DNA from: Streptomonospora nanhaiensis
GTDB taxonomy: Bacteria > Actinomycetota > Actinomycetes > Streptosporangiales > Streptosporangiaceae
Assembly: GCF_013410565.1 (NCBI RefSeq)
Contig: NZ_JACCFO010000001.1
Location: forward strand, 3,844,001 to 3,908,000
DNA: 64,000 bases
Reading direction: 5' to 3'
In this document: piece after piece, positions 1 to 5,456 of the stretch
Numbering within the stretch: the stretch's first letter is position 1
Layout of the letters: every line of letters starts with the position of its first letter
The notes under the pieces: generated by a model
The model's input: the letters and a program-made list of their open reading frames with translations, nothing else
Told to the model about the DNA's origin: nothing
The model's database searches: none
Program-made: the position numbers and the translations under genes

Positions 1-378
1 CTGGCCGTCGACCAGCCACGCCGGTTTCTCGTCGTCGGACTGGGTTTCGTCGACCGGTATGACGAGCTCCCCCGGCACCGCGTAGTCAACACTCCCGGTC
101 GGGCCGTGGCTGACGAACTCTACTCGGCGGTCGAACGCCAAGACGATGGCGTTCGGCAGCATGGCGCCGTCGGACTCCAGGTAGCGGCGGATGGCGCGGA
201 TGTGGCTCAGTACTTCGGGCCGCTGGTACCCCTGCAGATTCTTCTCTTCGTCCCTGTGGATTCGAGACACCGCGGCAAAGCCGTGCATCTTCTTGCCGTC
301 CACGGCGAAGCAGTAGATCCGTCGACTTCCTTGGCGAATCTCCAAGGCCGGCAGTCGAAGGGTGTAACGATCGGCCAC
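1..378 (-). CDS. Second DGQHR/ParB-like protein, C-terminus outside window
   Basis: The reading frame runs off the left edge, so only the first 126 residues are visible. GTG at 378 is chosen because AGGAG sits about 6 nt upstream on the minus strand. The protein parallels the DpdB-like protein at 1635-2765: GYQRPE at residues 50-55 is followed by a helix with a YLESD motif, a PNAIVL strand, and a PAWLVDGQ segment at the edge. This is the start of the DGQ(H/Q)R motif of the DndB/ParB-like superfamily. It lies 39 nt after the DpdA-like gene, so it is probably the fourth gene of the leftward operon. By family, it probably assists or regulates DNA modification. Two such proteins in one operon is unusual. 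Identity as a DGQHR protein is fairly sure; the exact role is inference. Confidence 0.75.
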   Translation of the reverse strand, partial: MADRYTLRLPALEIRQGSRRIYCFAVDGKKMHGFAAVSRIHRDEEKNLQGYQRPEVLSHIRAIRRYLESDGAMLPNAIVLAFDRRVEFVSHGPTGSVDYAVPGELVIPVDETQSDDEKPAWLVDGQ

Positions 379-417
379 ATTATCTCCTAGGTCAGATGGC
401 AGGATACCAGGCATCCA

Positions 418-1638
418 TCATGCGATGTCGAGTTCCCGCATCTTTGATTCGAGCACAGTCAGATTGTGGAAGCCCCTGCGTTTGTTTCTTTCTGTGCCCC
501 GAAAGATCGCGATTTCGATCCCGTGCTCTCGGCACAGGGCGCAGGGACATGTTTTCCAGGGGGAAGCCTCAAGGGTTCGACGATAGAAATCGATATAGCT
601 CTTTTTCTTCGGGCCATTGGCGAGTGCCTCGTATATCGCCAAGGCATCGATCACGTCATCGAGGTCGGCTTCACCTAGGTCGAAGGCGCGGAGTCGTTTG
701 AGGCATTCTCGTTCGGCTACAACCGCCTCTGCCTGGGATACTGTTCCCGACAGTATGCGGCGTTTAAGGGACGGGTTTCCGTCAACCTGTGGTACACGTA
801 TGGCGGTGAAGGACTCGTTCCGGGTATGGTAATTGTTGCGATCGTCCATGAAGGACTGTCGAAACGCTGAGGTGCTGTCAAAACTCGTTACGCCGTAGTC
901 CTTGAATTTCGCCATGCTGTCAACACGGGTGATGCCAAGGAGGTGGAGTTGTGTGTCGTCCGCCCTTACCGCATCAATCTCTTCCAGGCACGCGAGGATC
1001 TCGGCAGTCTTCAGGGGGACCATTCCGCCGAGGGCGATCCGGCGGTAGCCCATTGCCTGCAGTTGCTGGACGCTGTCGGCGTAACTCTTCGGGCTCCAGC
1101 CTTGGGCTGCGCCTACGGGTTCGAGGCTGGCCTTGCGCTGCCTGACTTCGGCAATGAAGAGTTCGGCCAGGTTCAACGATATGGATCGGCGGTCCACCCA
1201 CGCGGGATCCACGTCTCTGTCATCGGCGGCTGGAGTGAACCCGAAGATGACATGGTCAATGCTTACTCCTGCGTCGAAACCGCACCCTTCGTAGAAGTCA
1301 AGCACTTCATCTACGGTATACGGAGGATGCTCCTCGTCGATGTAATTAAATGCACCGCAGTCACCCAGGGATTCCATACCCTCCGGAAGTCTGAAGAAAC
1401 GGCGTACCCCCATTCGGTAGAGTCGCGCGCGTTGCGCCGAAGTGTACTTTCCCGAACCCTTGGCTGATCCGTCGACAATCGCCTTGCTGACGAGGATGCC
1501 GTCGTAGGGTTGGGATCCGACTACCTCGTGGGCGTAGAGGTCGTCACGTTGGCGTACGCGCGTTGGCGAGTACTCATCGCTGAGGAAATCATAGGTGGGG
1601 CTGACCAGGTCCTGACTATCGGGGAAATAGAACTTCAC
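418..1638 (-). CDS. dpdA: DpdA-like DNA 7-deazaguanine transglycosylase
   Basis: This 406-residue protein looks like a tRNA-guanine transglycosylase redirected to DNA. It has a GDCGAFNYI strand (92-100), a SIDHV segment (126-130) with the expected catalytic Asp region, an ALGGMVPL strand (202-209), and a C-terminal zinc site C364-x-C366-xx-C369 with H391. DpdA enzymes swap guanine in DNA for preQ0, made by QueC/QueE/QueD, whose genes lie divergently 2 kb away. The GTG start at 1638 overlaps the TGA of the DpdB-like gene (GTGA), showing translational coupling. The length fits DpdA better than an ordinary bacterial Tgt with PUA. Substrate (DNA) is inferred from the DpdB-like neighbours. GC content is lower than in most genes of the window. 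Confidence 0.85.
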   Translation of the reverse strand: MKFYFPDSQDLVSPTYDFLSDEYSPTRVRQRDDLYAHEVVGSQPYDGILVSKAIVDGSAKGSGKYTSAQRARLYRMGVRRFFRLPEGMESLGDCGAFNYIDEEHPPYTVDEVLDFYEGCGFDAGVSIDHVIFGFTPAADDRDVDPAWVDRRSISLNLAELFIAEVRQRKASLEPVGAAQGWSPKSYADSVQQLQAMGYRRIALGGMVPLKTAEILACLEEIDAVRADDTQLHLLGITRVDSMAKFKDYGVTSFDSTSAFRQSFMDDRNNYHTRNESFTAIRVPQVDGNPSLKRRILSGTVSQAEAVVAERECLKRLRAFDLGEADLDDVIDALAIYEALANGPKKKSYIDFYRRTLEASPWKTCPCALCREHGIEIAIFRGTERNKRRGFHNLTVLESKMRELDIA

Positions 1639-2765
1639 GACGCGCTTGCCCTAGCCTGAACATATACACGAATAAGGAAATTTGAGAGAGTGCTGATATG
1701 TCGCGGAGTGTTCTGAAGTTCGTTCCAGTTGACACCGAGTTCCGGCCAGCGTCCCTGTGTCCAATGGCATTGTTCTTTTATTACCGACAATTCTCCGCGT
1801 GCGCTGAGAATCGGATCTTCGGTGTTCAAGTCCACATTCGCCATGACCTTGTCCATAAGGCGGCCCATGGCTCGGATTCCGACTCCGTGCATCAAGCGAC
1901 TCTTTGTAGGAGGCAGTCCCCATGCGTTGGGAAACGTCTCACGCACCGCAGACCAATAAGTGATGAGAAGGCGGCGGATGGTGACTGTGTCGGTGGTGTT
2001 GTTGGACAGGTTTCGGTGCAAAAATAGGATACCGGCGGATGAGTTCAGCGATTCCTCGATCGCGGTGATCAGGCCGTTGTCAGCGATCACCGCGCCGCGC
2101 TTGTCCGAGCCGGTGGAGGCTCGTTTGATCATTCCGCGCAGCGGGGATTCAGGATCCTGGTTGAGCACGTCTACCAGGGCCGATGGCAGTTTTCGTGCCG
2201 ACAGCTTGGCGGGAAGCGGGGTCCACACCTCTGGCAGGAGTTCTGAGACAAGATTGCTCGGGAGCGGCGAAACGGTGTTGACGCGAAGAAACTGCTCGCG
2301 CTGAGTCGGGATGTCTTCGGCGACAAAGCCGGCGGCGGTGACGGGCAGCCTTGTCCTCCGGGTACGGGACAACGCCAGACTGCGCTGCTGGCCGTCGACG
2401 ATCCAGGCGGGGCGAGGCTCGGCGTCGGATTCAGGAAGTGGGATCTCCAGCGTTCCGCTGGTCGCCAGGCCGTCAAAGGAGGAGGGGCCGGGACTCGAAC
2501 GAAAGCGCACCGACTTGGGCAGCGCCAGGATCAATCCATTGGGGAAGAGGACCTCATCGCTGTCAAGGTACTCAAGGATCTGCTTGACATGCTGCTTCTT
2601 CTCCGGGCGCTGGTATCCGATGAGCTTTCCCGCATCGTCGCGCGAGATGCGGGCCACATCGGCAACCTGGCTCACCTCCTCGGCCGCCAGGGTGAACACA
2701 TAGAGCGGCACTTCGGAGTGCTGGTGAATGCGCAGAGCCCGGCGCTTGAGGACGCGACCGCCCAT
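1635..2765 (-). CDS. dpdB: DpdB-like DGQHR-domain protein
   Basis: A 376-residue protein with GYQRPE at 50-55, YLDSDEVLFPNG at 66-77 and PAWIVDGQQRSLALS with DGQQR at 124-128. These are the marks of the DndB/ParB-like DGQHR family. In known Dpd systems DpdB works with DpdA to put preQ0 into DNA and is needed for modification. It overlaps the preceding gene by ATGA at 2765 and the dpdA-like gene by GTGA at 1635, so the three are translated as one coupled set. Its best visible relative is the truncated gene at the left window edge. DndB of phosphorothioation systems shares the fold, but the dpdA and que neighbours argue for the deazaguanine role. Confidence 0.82.
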   Translation of the reverse strand: MGGRVLKRRALRIHQHSEVPLYVFTLAAEEVSQVADVARISRDDAGKLIGYQRPEKKQHVKQILEYLDSDEVLFPNGLILALPKSVRFRSSPGPSSFDGLATSGTLEIPLPESDAEPRPAWIVDGQQRSLALSRTRRTRLPVTAAGFVAEDIPTQREQFLRVNTVSPLPSNLVSELLPEVWTPLPAKLSARKLPSALVDVLNQDPESPLRGMIKRASTGSDKRGAVIADNGLITAIEESLNSSAGILFLHRNLSNNTTDTVTIRRLLITYWSAVRETFPNAWGLPPTKSRLMHGVGIRAMGRLMDKVMANVDLNTEDPILSARGELSVIKEQCHWTQGRWPELGVNWNELQNTPRHISTLSNFLIRVYVQARASAS

Positions 2766-3655
2766 CAGGCGCCCATCGTCTGTGCGTACAGCATGGCGAA
2801 CCGCTTCTGCTCGCAGGCCCTTCCGCTTTCCCGGAGCAGTCGGTGCAGTCTTGTCCTGGAGTACTCGGGATGCTGCTCCGTCTGTACGCGGATGAACGCA
2901 CGTACGGCTTCATCACTCATAGGTGTGCGGTCATACCTTTCGGGGGATCGCACCGACTCCGCCCACCGAGTCCAGGCGGCAGTGGTGTCGGACGACGTCA
3001 GACGACCGGCTGGGCTGCAGTGTTCGAGCCAGGAGATCGCCATGCGGACGTTCAGGCTCGTCAGTGTCCCACCCAGAGCGCGGCGCAAGGCCCTGTTGGC
3101 CGGCACGCGTTGAATACCGGTCACGTCTCTGTCTCCTCCCACAAGGAGGACGTCATCTCCTGCCTCACCCAACGCACACAGTTCCGCGTTCAAAGCCGTG
3201 GCGTATACCTCAGACAGTACAAGCAGCACGGGGCCACGCTTGGCCAAGTCCTGGAGGCGGGCGGCTCCTCGCGCTGCCTGGAGACGTGCCCACCAGCGGA
3301 TCCGCTCCTCGCTGGTGGAGGCCACAGAGTCGGCGTGCCGAGGGCTGAGCGCGGCGGCATAGGAAGGGGCGGTCGCTAAGGCGGGCTGCAGTCCCAGCCC
3401 AGCTGAGACCACCCACAGTTCAGGAGTGAAACCCGCCTGACGAGCGCGCTCGATCAGTGCACCGACCTGCACCCAGTGCTCACCCTTGTAGAGCCGGTTC
3501 AAGGGGAGATGATCGTCAGCCCGGTCGATGCGAGCCGTCCAGACGCTCACCCGATGGTCGACGTCCCCCTCGGGGAGCGTCTGCACCCGCAAGTCTGGGT
3601 CCGGAGTCGTTATCTTGCGGTCCGTGCAGGTAACTACCAACGACAGTTGCCTCAC
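2765..3655 (-). CDS. Unrecognised first gene of the Dpd-like operon
   Basis: A 296-residue protein that I do not recognise with certainty. The N-terminus has CTDRK at about 10-14, then LYKGEHW, a VVSAGLGL strand and PSYAAAL. This pattern resembles the DUF6884/YaaA-like proteins found near deazaguanine and nucleic-acid modification genes, but the match is by eye only. The second half has LLVLSEVYA and [16 protein letters not shown], then a helical C-terminus. GTG at 3655 follows GGGAG about 9 nt upstream. As the first gene, overlapping dpdB by ATGA, it very probably serves the same system. It occupies a place where a modification-tailoring enzyme (DpdC-like, converting preQ0 in DNA) or a nuclease could sit. 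Neither is shown by the sequence. Confidence 0.55.
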
Positions 3656-3765
3656 GCGGACTGACTCCCTGTGCTTCTAACTCGGGCATGAGCGCCCGCT
3701 ACTCTACCGGTCGGTTGCGAGCGCTATGCTCGCGGGGATGTTGCTGTCAACTGAAGGGCGATGAC
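3656..3765. promoter_or_regulatory. Divergent intergenic control region of the Dpd/que operons
   Basis: The 110 bases between the leftward operon (GTG at 3655) and queC (ATG at 3766) must hold both promoters. A TATGCT hexamer at 3724-3729 lies 37 nt before queC and could be its -10; I see no good -35. No preQ1/preQ0 riboswitch fold is evident in this short space. Confidence 0.35.
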
Positions 3766-4461
3766 ATGGAGCGACCTGCGATCGTGCTGCTCAGCGGGGG
3801 CCTGGACTCCACCACCGTCCTGGCAATCGCGAAAGACCGCGGCTTTGCCCCTTACGCGCTGAGCTTTCGATACGGTCAGCGCCACAGCGTCGAGCTCGAG
3901 GCAGCGCAAAGGGTCGCTCAGACGATGTCCGTGGTGCGACACGTGGTTGCCGACATCGATCTTCGCGTCTTCGGTGGTTCGGCGCTGACTGATGATATCT
4001 CCGTTCCCAAGCACGAGAGCGTGGACGAGGTCGCCTCTACGAGCGTGCCGATCACCTACGTTCCGGCCCGCAACACGGTATTCCTCTCCTATGCATTGGC
4101 CTACGCCGAAGTCGTGGGGGCGTTTGACATCTTCACTGGAATCACTGCGGTGGACTACAGTGGGTATCCCGACTGCAGGCCCGAGTACGTTGAGGCGTAC
4201 GAGAAGATGGCCAATCTCGCGACGCGCGCTGCGGTCGAGGGAAAGCAGCGGCTAAGGATTCACTCGCCTCTAATCGAGATGTCGAAGGCGGACATCGTCC
4301 GCGAAGGGCTTCGCCTTGGTGTGGACTACTCGCTGACTTCGAGTTGCTATGACCCCGACGAGCAGGGAAGGGCGTGCGGGCACTGCGACACATGCCTGCT
4401 CCGGCTCAAGGGATTTTCCGAGGCCGGCGTCACTGACCCGATCCGGTATCAGGACGCCTAA
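3766..4461 (+). CDS. queC: 7-cyano-7-deazaguanine (preQ0) synthase QueC
   Basis: QueC turns 7-carboxy-7-deazaguanine into preQ0 using ATP and ammonia. The 231-residue protein has the adenylation P-loop SGGLDSTT at 10-17, the [19 protein letters not shown] block, an [16 protein letters not shown] block and the zinc site C194, C204, C207, C210 (ACGHCDTC). ATG at 3766 is chosen over upstream starts because the conserved AIVLLSGG begins at once and AAGGG lies about 8 nt upstream. It is followed two bases later by queE and then queD, so the three form an operon that feeds the divergent Dpd genes. folE is not in the window; FolE would come from elsewhere in the genome. Confidence 0.96.
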
Positions 4462-4463
4462 TT

Positions 4464-5099
4464 ATGCGTTATTTTGTCAAAGAGATCTTCTATACTCTGC
4501 AGGGAGAAGGCAGCCACGCCGGCCGGCCTGCGGTCTTCTGCCGCATGTCACGTTGCAACCTGTGGACCGGCTACGAAAAAGATCGCCATCGGGCGATCTG
4601 CAAGTTTTGCGACACCGATTTCGTTGGCACGGACGGCGTTGGGGGCGGGCGGTTTCAATCGGCGGAGAAATTGGCGGACGCGGTTGAGCGCGCCTGGCCG
4701 TCGGAATCACGGGGCCATCGGTTCGTGGTGTGCACCGGTGGTGAGCCGCTCTTGCAGTTGGACGACGCGGCTGTGGCCGCTCTACACGAGCGAGGTTTTG
4801 AGGTAGCTGTCGAGACCAATGGCACCCGGCGTCCGCCTCGAGGAGTTGACTGGCTGTGCGTAAGTCCAAAAATCGGGGCTGAGCTGGTGGTTTCCGAGGG
4901 CGACGAACTGAAGTTGGTCTACCCGCAGGCCGGAGGTGACCCCGCACAGTTCGAACATCTGGATTTCGGTGTTTTCCGGTTGCAGCCGATGGATGGTCCT
5001 GAGTTGGCGGCCAACACCGAGGCAGCCGTTGAATACTGCCTCAAGAACCCCCGGTGGCGGCTCTCGCTGCAGACGCACAAATATCTGGGGATTCGTTAG
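4464..5099 (+). CDS. queE: 7-carboxy-7-deazaguanine synthase QueE
   Basis: QueE is a radical SAM enzyme converting 6-carboxy-5,6,7,8-tetrahydropterin into 7-carboxy-7-deazaguanine. The 211-residue protein shows the QueE-specific cluster motif C31-x14-C46-x2-C49 (not the usual CX3CX2C), as in Burkholderia-type QueE. It also has LQGEGSHAGRPAVF at 12-25, VVCTGGEPLLQ (the GGE SAM motif), VETNGT and WLCVSPK. It starts two bases after queC, and queD follows without a gap. The length is typical. Nothing looks broken. Confidence 0.96.
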   Translation: MRYFVKEIFYTLQGEGSHAGRPAVFCRMSRCNLWTGYEKDRHRAICKFCDTDFVGTDGVGGGRFQSAEKLADAVERAWPSESRGHRFVVCTGGEPLLQLDDAAVAALHERGFEVAVETNGTRRPPRGVDWLCVSPKIGAELVVSEGDELKLVYPQAGGDPAQFEHLDFGVFRLQPMDGPELAANTEAAVEYCLKNPRWRLSLQTHKYLGIR

Positions 5100-5456
5100 A
5101 TGGAAATATTTCGAGAGTTCACCTTTGAGGCGGCCCATCGGCTTCCCCGTGTCCCGGAAGGGCACAAGTGCGCGCGTCTTCATGGGCATTCATACCGAGT
5201 GACCGTGCACCTGGACGCTGAAGTCGACCCGCAGGCGGGTTGGGTCATGGACTTCGGTGAAGTGAAGCAGGTTTTCGAGCCTATTCGGGCACAACTTGAT
5301 CACTACTATCTCAACGAGGTTCCTGGACTGGAAAACCCGACAAGCGAGAATCTGGCGCAGTGGATATGGAGGCGCCTGGAACCGGCTCTTCCGGAACTCT
5401 CTGCGGTAACCATCCGGGAGACGTGTACCTCGGGAGTCACGTTCCGGGGGAGGTAA
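5100..5456 (+). CDS. queD: 6-carboxy-5,6,7,8-tetrahydropterin synthase QueD
   Basis: QueD makes 6-carboxytetrahydropterin from dihydroneopterin triphosphate, the first committed step to preQ0. The 118-residue protein has the three zinc histidines H13, H28 and H30 (AAH, HGH), the catalytic C24 in [26 protein letters not shown] and the C-terminal IRETCTSG. The ATG directly follows the queE stop (TAGATG), so translation is coupled. This is the last gene of the que operon and marks the right edge of the lower-GC island; bases after it are much richer in G and C. Confidence 0.96.

Follow-up and report, generated by a model that had tools for sequence, protein, structure and literature searches.

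A predicted Dpd restriction-modification island with two distinct DpdB paralogues in Streptomonospora nanhaiensis

In our study, a stretch of 64,000 nucleotides of Streptomonospora nanhaiensis (the window; G000:C1:3844001-3908000, from a two-contig genome of 6,283,946 bases) was found to contain, at positions 1-5456, the modification end of a Dpd-type DNA 7-deazaguanine system. In Dpd islands, the mark on DNA is a base supplied by cell metabolism instead of methylation, and little is known about how these islands choose their sites and destroy unmarked DNA. The minus strand, read leftwards from position 3655, contained dpdC, dpdB-up, dpdA and dpdB-down, and the divergent plus strand contained queC-queE-queD. 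The dpdA gene (418-1638, minus strand) encodes a DNA-guanine transglycosylase of 406 amino acids, which matched PADLOC DpdA at 629 bits and the NCBIfam model NF041059 at 632 bits (cut-off 200). The dpdB-up gene (1635-2765, minus strand; DGQHR/ParB-like, 376 amino acids) is located between dpdC and dpdA and matched PADLOC DpdB at 487 bits and NF041060 at 403 bits (cut-off 300). The gene of the second DGQHR protein, dpdB-down, follows downstream of dpdA; its N-terminal 138 codons occupy 1-414 (minus strand) and scored 156 bits against PADLOC DpdB, whereas the whole gene (L004:16263-17414; 383 amino acids), which is cut by the left window edge and reaches 737 bases beyond it, scored 506 bits. The dpdC gene (2765-3655, minus strand; 296 amino acids) matched PADLOC DpdC at 389 bits, and no Pfam family matched DpdC at an expect value (E) of up to 1. 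An overlap of 1 base was found between dpdC and dpdB-up and of 4 bases between dpdB-up and dpdA, followed by a gap of 3 bases between dpdA and dpdB-down, a close spacing that resembles a single operon. The scores were far above chance, and the Dpd genes at 1-5456 were confirmed as real.

On the plus strand, queC (3688-4461, start more likely at 3766) encodes 7-cyano-7-deazaguanine synthase with an SGGLDS motif (TIGR00364, 203 bits, cut-off 150), queE (4464-5099) encodes 7-carboxy-7-deazaguanine synthase of the Cx14CxxC type (TIGR04508, 345 bits, cut-off 240) and queD (5100-5456) encodes 6-carboxytetrahydropterin synthase (TIGR03367, 114 bits, cut-off 89), which forms the right end of the island. 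All three were over the NCBIfam equivalogue cut-offs. If queC starts at 3766, the divergent dpdC and queC genes are separated by an intergenic region of 110 bases (3656-3765). The original prediction, made from the sequence of the window, of a Dpd-type system with its own genes for 7-cyano-7-deazaguanine (preQ0) and with a transglycosylase flanked by two DGQHR proteins was borne out. The divergence from queC-queE-queD was also found as described, but dpdC had been overlooked, and it is dpdC that faces queC.

The restriction part had been expected to the left of the window and was found there. From left to right, the plus strand contained dpdE, dpdF, dpdG, dpdH, a gene of 229 amino acids at the position of dpdI, dpdJ, dpdK and dpdD, followed by dpdB-down on the minus strand. 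The PADLOC matches were 681 bits for DpdE (625 of 1102 amino acids scanned), 1031 for DpdF, 1229 for DpdH, 1752 for DpdJ, 192 for DpdK and 671 for DpdD. A leftward search for helicase, nuclease or phospholipase D (PLD) genes had been proposed. In the DpdD-K half found there, the Pfam PLD-like domain of DpdK was barely over its cut-off (27.9 against 27 bits). Many of the loci compared below contained a relative of the 229-amino-acid gene in the corresponding position.

From the start of dpdE to the stop of queD, the island comprises 23,868 bases with a guanine plus cytosine (GC) content of 64.5%, and its flanks (17.6 and 14.5 kb) contain 75.2% and 74.2%. The GC content over positions 1-2000 of the window, which hold dpdA and the adjoining ends of both dpdB genes, was 57.5%, below that of the remainder of the island. 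Among six genomes searched in the genus, dpdA was found only in the present strain. In the genome of a sister species (G398), both flanks were found at 88-90% identity and 1.2 kb apart, against about 25 kb here, which makes it an empty orthologous site. The interval in the sister species contained an HNH endonuclease gene (L143:4256-5245; PF01844, 44 bits) where the Dpd island sits here, and this one comparison suggests a spot of defence-gene exchange.

DpdA scored below the cut-offs of the models for tRNA-guanine transglycosylase (TGT), with 17.4 bits against 26.3 for PF01702 and 14.9 bits against 47.6 for TIGR00449. Up to an E of 1, only one PDB sequence matched DpdA, namely 7ui4, a "DNA-guanine transglycosylase" (E 2e-125, residues 1-400). 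Residues D93, D254, C364, C366, C369 and H391, which we take to be the catalytic aspartates and the zinc-binding residues of a putative TGT-type active site, were identical in 89 of 89 aligned DpdAs. The suggestion that the enzyme does not belong to the tRNA-acting TGTs is upheld here at the level of family scores and of the match to 7ui4.

A DpdA scan of genome contigs gave 123 relatives, of which the best 80, with a lean to Actinomycetota, were compared. The addition of the window, of G031 and of seven plasmid loci brought the comparison set to 89 loci; the alphaproteobacterial plasmids were chosen partly for showing two DpdB places and are illustrations, not a sample. A dpdB gene was present on both sides of dpdA in 78 of the 89 loci, only downstream in 10 and on neither side in 1; for the best 80 of the 123 scan loci, the counts were 71 on both sides and 9 downstream only. 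One of the loci counted as downstream-only (L080) is cut at a contig edge and shows a DpdB-up-like fragment. The que operon was divergent and upstream in 43 of the 89 loci; 26 loci had it collinear and upstream and 7 collinear and downstream, and in 13 it was unseen in the compared stretch. The GATOR-GC preprint of 2025, which covers 333 unique actinomycetotal islands, reported that additional copies were more numerous for dpdB than for any other dpd gene (n=801), and the available section gives no positions or relationships of these copies (PMC11888242). Extra dpdB copies were unmentioned in the available parts of PMC12839542, PMC6884629, PMC12707154, PMC4619093 and PMC13329287. The doubled dpdB is a widely shared and already known feature that is not unique to this genome, and neither the doubling nor the compact divergent layout can be counted as new, as had been proposed.

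In eight loci, dpdB-up was absent and dpdA, dpdB-down and dpdC were kept, namely in the scan loci L076, L078, L079, L084, L085, L088 and L089 and in Enterobacter L092; L074 contained neither dpdB-up nor dpdC. The genomes behind eight of the scan loci devoid of DpdB-up are mostly metagenome assemblies and may be incomplete; five of them (G401, G403, G404, G405 and G408) contained a single DpdB match overall, G402 and G406 contained an extra fragment or weak match, and a true DpdB-up was present only in G407, which also holds L082. This metagenome-assembled Acidimicrobiaceae genome carries two dpd loci, L082 with DpdB-up and L088 without it. In DpdA, DpdB-down and DpdC, L082 is close kin of L088 and L089, both of which are devoid of DpdB-up, and this kinship shows that DpdB-up was gained or lost on its own. 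At L076:3327-3985, the intact DpdB is followed directly downstream by short DpdB-like fragments, which may be what is left of an additional copy that was disrupted.

The relationship of the two copies was studied in a quick, unrooted tree of 174 DpdB and DGQHR sequences, with support from the Shimodaira-Hasegawa-like approximate likelihood ratio test (SH-aLRT) only and with long branches flagged. L004, which duplicates the window, and DpdB fragments of at most 250 aligned residues were left out, and a weak upstream DGQHR gene in L085 (42 bits) was classed as "other". All 78 upstream copies, from Actinomycetota, Myxococcota and Alphaproteobacteria, were found on one side of a branch with an SH-aLRT of 100. 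The trees add that DpdB-up and DpdB-down are probably old, position-fixed paralogues. The single DpdB of Enterobacter was closer to DpdB-down (320 bits) than to DpdB-up (212 bits). Motifs conserved to at least 95% in both DpdBs were a G-x-QR stretch, the sequence VDGQQR and an N that precedes ELLP, and neither copy was degenerate. Differently conserved positions (trimmed-row numbering) included L174 in the downstream copy against R166 in the upstream copy, and P23 against R14.

DpdB-up belongs to the DGQHR/DndB superfamily (TIGR03187, 216 bits, cut-off 58.85; PF14072, 53.5 bits, cut-off 29.1), and VDGQQR was present in both copies. AlphaFold2 models had a mean predicted local distance difference test score of 78.9 and a predicted template modelling score of 0.52 for DpdB-up of the window, and of 87.6 and 0.71 for DpdB-down of Nocardiopsis sinuspersici (L010). 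The top VIA rows for the N-terminal domains were ParB, Noc and KorB, with sulfiredoxin in addition for DpdB-down, at Z of up to 7.2 and 6.9. In the PDB sequence search, DpdB-up had no match up to an E of 1, and the DpdB-down profile gave four rows at chance level (E 0.67 or worse). DGQHR-like domains have been assigned to the ParB/sulfiredoxin group in the available part of PMC4619093, consistent with the model matches, and DpdB has been termed a ParB-like ATPase in that of PMC12839542.

Judged from its gene families, the locus represents a Dpd restriction-modification island that is complete and intact, and it is an ordinary example of its class. We consider, with a probability of about 0.88, that it is a horizontally acquired island in which DpdB-up is an accessory paralogue. 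In such an island, QueD, QueE and QueC would make preQ0, and DpdA would swap guanine in DNA for preQ0 together with DpdB-down, a putative DGQHR ParB-like nucleoside triphosphatase (NTPase). DpdC would then turn the nitrile into the amide, giving 2'-deoxy-7-amido-7-deazaguanosine (dADG), and the DpdD-K half, with its helicases, ATPase and PLD-type protein, would attack unmarked DNA. DpdB-up would assist the modification half beside DpdB-down, most simply as a heteromeric partner that possibly adds target range. Because eight loci have dpdA, dpdB-down and dpdC but no dpdB-up, we infer that DpdB-up is an accessory subunit and not needed for the core reaction.

Several points weigh against this reading. 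The match of dpdG was weak (34 bits), and the 229-amino-acid gene between dpdH and dpdJ (L004:8420-9109) had no PADLOC match and owes the name dpdI to its position only. Modification and restriction in the present strain are predictions from gene families. The 88 downstream copies needed 4 changes on the tree, with single and odd DpdBs among them, and are not one clean group; as the tree is unrooted, the duplication may lie at more than one place on it, and transfer across phyla may stand in place of great age. A VIA Z of about 7 is a level at which, as the tool warns, a match may reflect no more than a common arrangement. The proposed Foldseek check of both DGQHR proteins did place ParB among the top rows, but the best E was 0.042 (ParB) for DpdB-up and 0.12 for DpdB-down, of which the first two rows were the unrelated RAG1 and ParB came third, and neither protein had a match at E 0.001 or better.

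Dimers gated by nucleotide are the working form of ParB proteins, and it is because of this that a hetero-pair is our preferred guess for DpdB-up. A more specific proposal, which we regard as tentative and think would sooner fail than hold, is that the asymmetric pair forms a split ParB-like DNA clamp driven by nucleoside triphosphate (NTP), in which DpdB-down would deliver DpdA and DpdB-up would supply a second activity, either a further target sequence or the hand-over of preQ0-DNA to DpdC. If true, the loader of most actinobacterial Dpd systems would be heteromeric and would differ from the enterobacterial enzyme with its single DpdB. The history of the paralogues is a modest addition to what is known; the distinct, position-fixed groups turn the "extra dpdB copies" into a testable question on an accessory DpdB-up.

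DpdB-up may instead be a dedicated partner of DpdC in the step from preQ0 in DNA to dADG, with DpdB-down serving DpdA, so that one NTPase would act in each chemical step; we consider this rather unlikely, and the evidence is divided. The position of dpdB-up between dpdC and dpdA is in keeping with it, as is the joint lack of both genes in L074. Near-identical loci (e.g., L016) were left out of the distance and gene-tree analyses, and the gene trees were again quick and unrooted, with SH-aLRT only. In 64 loci, the partial correlation of distances between DpdB-up and DpdC was 0.495 (0 of 500 permutations), with the halves DpdA and DpdB-down on one side and DpdC and DpdB-up on the other; in 62 loci it was 0.72 for DpdC and DpdB-up and 0.80 for DpdA and DpdB-down. 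On the gene trees of 66 loci, the que layout changed once on DpdB-up and once on DpdC, against 3 times on DpdA and 4 times on DpdB-down. This layout pattern, the firmer part of the evidence, may be read as the two halves having been exchanged several times, with a junction between dpdB-up and dpdA.

Nine recombinant loci, chosen by the analyst from score and tree patterns, were then removed. In the remaining 53 loci, the correlation of DpdB-up with DpdC was 0.13, against 0.43 with DpdB-down, and in the 37 divergent loci it was 0.10 against 0.45; only in the 16 non-recombinant collinear loci did DpdC keep the lead (0.42, 0 of 500 permutations, against -0.13). Because the correlation drops on removal of these nine loci, most of the signal comes from a few recombinations; the result is mixed, and a partnership with DpdC is not claimed. 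Coevolution of DpdB-up with DpdC was likewise not accepted on these values. A separate idea, that DpdB-up entered together with a particular DpdC, was not supported, as the presence of DpdB-up has to change 4 times on the tree of DpdC. Also against a dedicated DpdC partner stand the seven scan loci and Enterobacter L092 that have DpdC without DpdB-up, and the DpdC of L082, which is 71% identical to that of L089, a locus devoid of DpdB-up.

It is a shade less likely still that DpdB-up is an old, redundant duplicate, retained for its effect on dosage and interchangeable with DpdB-down. The shared core motifs and the lack of DpdB-up in several lineages would fit redundancy, but the upstream copies form one group across Actinomycetota, Myxococcota and Alphaproteobacteria at a fixed position, and DpdB-up was found without DpdB-down in 0 of 78 loci.

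With regard to the supply of preQ0, no folE was found in the island with FolE1 and FolE2 searches, and two FolE1 genes were present elsewhere in the genome; with no such gene in the island, a chromosomal FolE is the probable source of the starting pterin. The idea that the divergent layout is marked by the lack of folE was considered and rejected: the FolE1 query gave no match in any locus, but FolE2 was present in 34 of the 43 divergent and 22 of the 26 collinear-upstream loci. The window is among the 9 divergent loci without a FolE2 query match in the compared stretch, and some of these stretches end at contig ends. When the genome was searched with the TGT family, no match was obtained at E up to 0.1, and DpdA itself was also not detected by that search; 33 of 60 genomes of the phylum had a TGT match over the cut-off. 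Because of this difference, preQ0 is here probably not used for queuosine by the usual enzyme. The QueC of the window scored 16.8 bits against the QatC model (QatC / CBASS QueC-like), far from its cut-off of 280.

A second queC-queE-folE set, which includes one of the two FolE1 genes and a queD recognized by eye, was found about 2 Mb away (L005:8487-15540; G000:C1 about 5903486-5910539) at 72% DNA identity. It adjoins an AMP-binding (adenylation)/carrier/reductase protein and a P450-like reading frame seen by eye only, and is probably a natural-product cluster that uses preQ0. This set indicates another use of preQ0 in the cell, but it is very improbable that the que genes of the island and DpdA work for queuosine in tRNA or for a natural product and not for DNA, given the distance to the second set, the DpdA scores far below the tRNA TGT cut-offs with a match to a DNA-guanine transglycosylase, and the place of the que operon next to dpdC and the restriction genes.

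The available section of PMC11888242 describes Dpd islands, such as those of Salmonella Montevideo and Kineococcus radiotolerans, which likewise contain dpdA-C and dpdD-K, with preQ0 genes nearby in many. The dpdC-A-B set of the Enterobacter plasmid has one dpdB, whereas two flank dpdA here. Near matches to this plasmid segment (dpdC-like, dpdA, dpdB) were found in 161 of 5426 complete genomes of E. coli, at one place each, and the ten of these rows that were listed named one dpdA and one DpdB. A close likeness was found with Nocardiopsis sinuspersici, which shares the order dpdC-dpdB-dpdA-dpdB, the divergent que operon and dpdD, dpdK, dpdJ and dpdH, at identities of 81% for DpdA, 80% for DpdB-down and 82% for DpdB-up; no difference was seen in the compared stretch, which ends inside dpdH.

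The alphaproteobacterial plasmids (Sinorhizobium, Caulobacter, Skermanella, Methylobacterium and Agrobacterium) also contained dpdB-dpdA-dpdB, with both genes annotated as DpdB and a weakly DpdC-like gene in front (39-48 bits). They differ in that the que genes are collinear and downstream, and dpdF/dpdH-like genes were found in 2 of the 5 compared stretches. DndB/DGQHR proteins and the DUF262 NTPases GmrS, SspE and BrxU share with the DpdBs the DGQxR signature in a ParB/sulfiredoxin-type domain, which for the DpdBs is putative, and in GmrS this motif has been predicted to bind NTP (available part of PMC4619093). No Dnd model was present among the PADLOC matches listed for the island proteins, and the DNA-phosphorothioation model DGQHR_dnd_1 was matched at 56 bits, below its cut-off of 450.

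Three further plasmids contained unusual arrangements. In Paenibacillus (L100:5158-9132), an unusually long DpdA of about 689 amino acids was found with divergent que genes, a VUT-family gene of the preQ0-salvage type and a second TGT-like gene, and no DpdB was found in the stretch. In Euzebya pacifica (L097:9016-10161), no DpdA was found in the stretch, and a DpdB closer to the downstream type, perhaps used with another modifier, was present near two genes annotated as DNA cytosine methyltransferases. In Variovorax (L096:8992-10559), also with no DpdA in the stretch, a DpdB followed by a DUF6884 (DpdC-like) gene was located directly after a type I-E CRISPR-cas operon.

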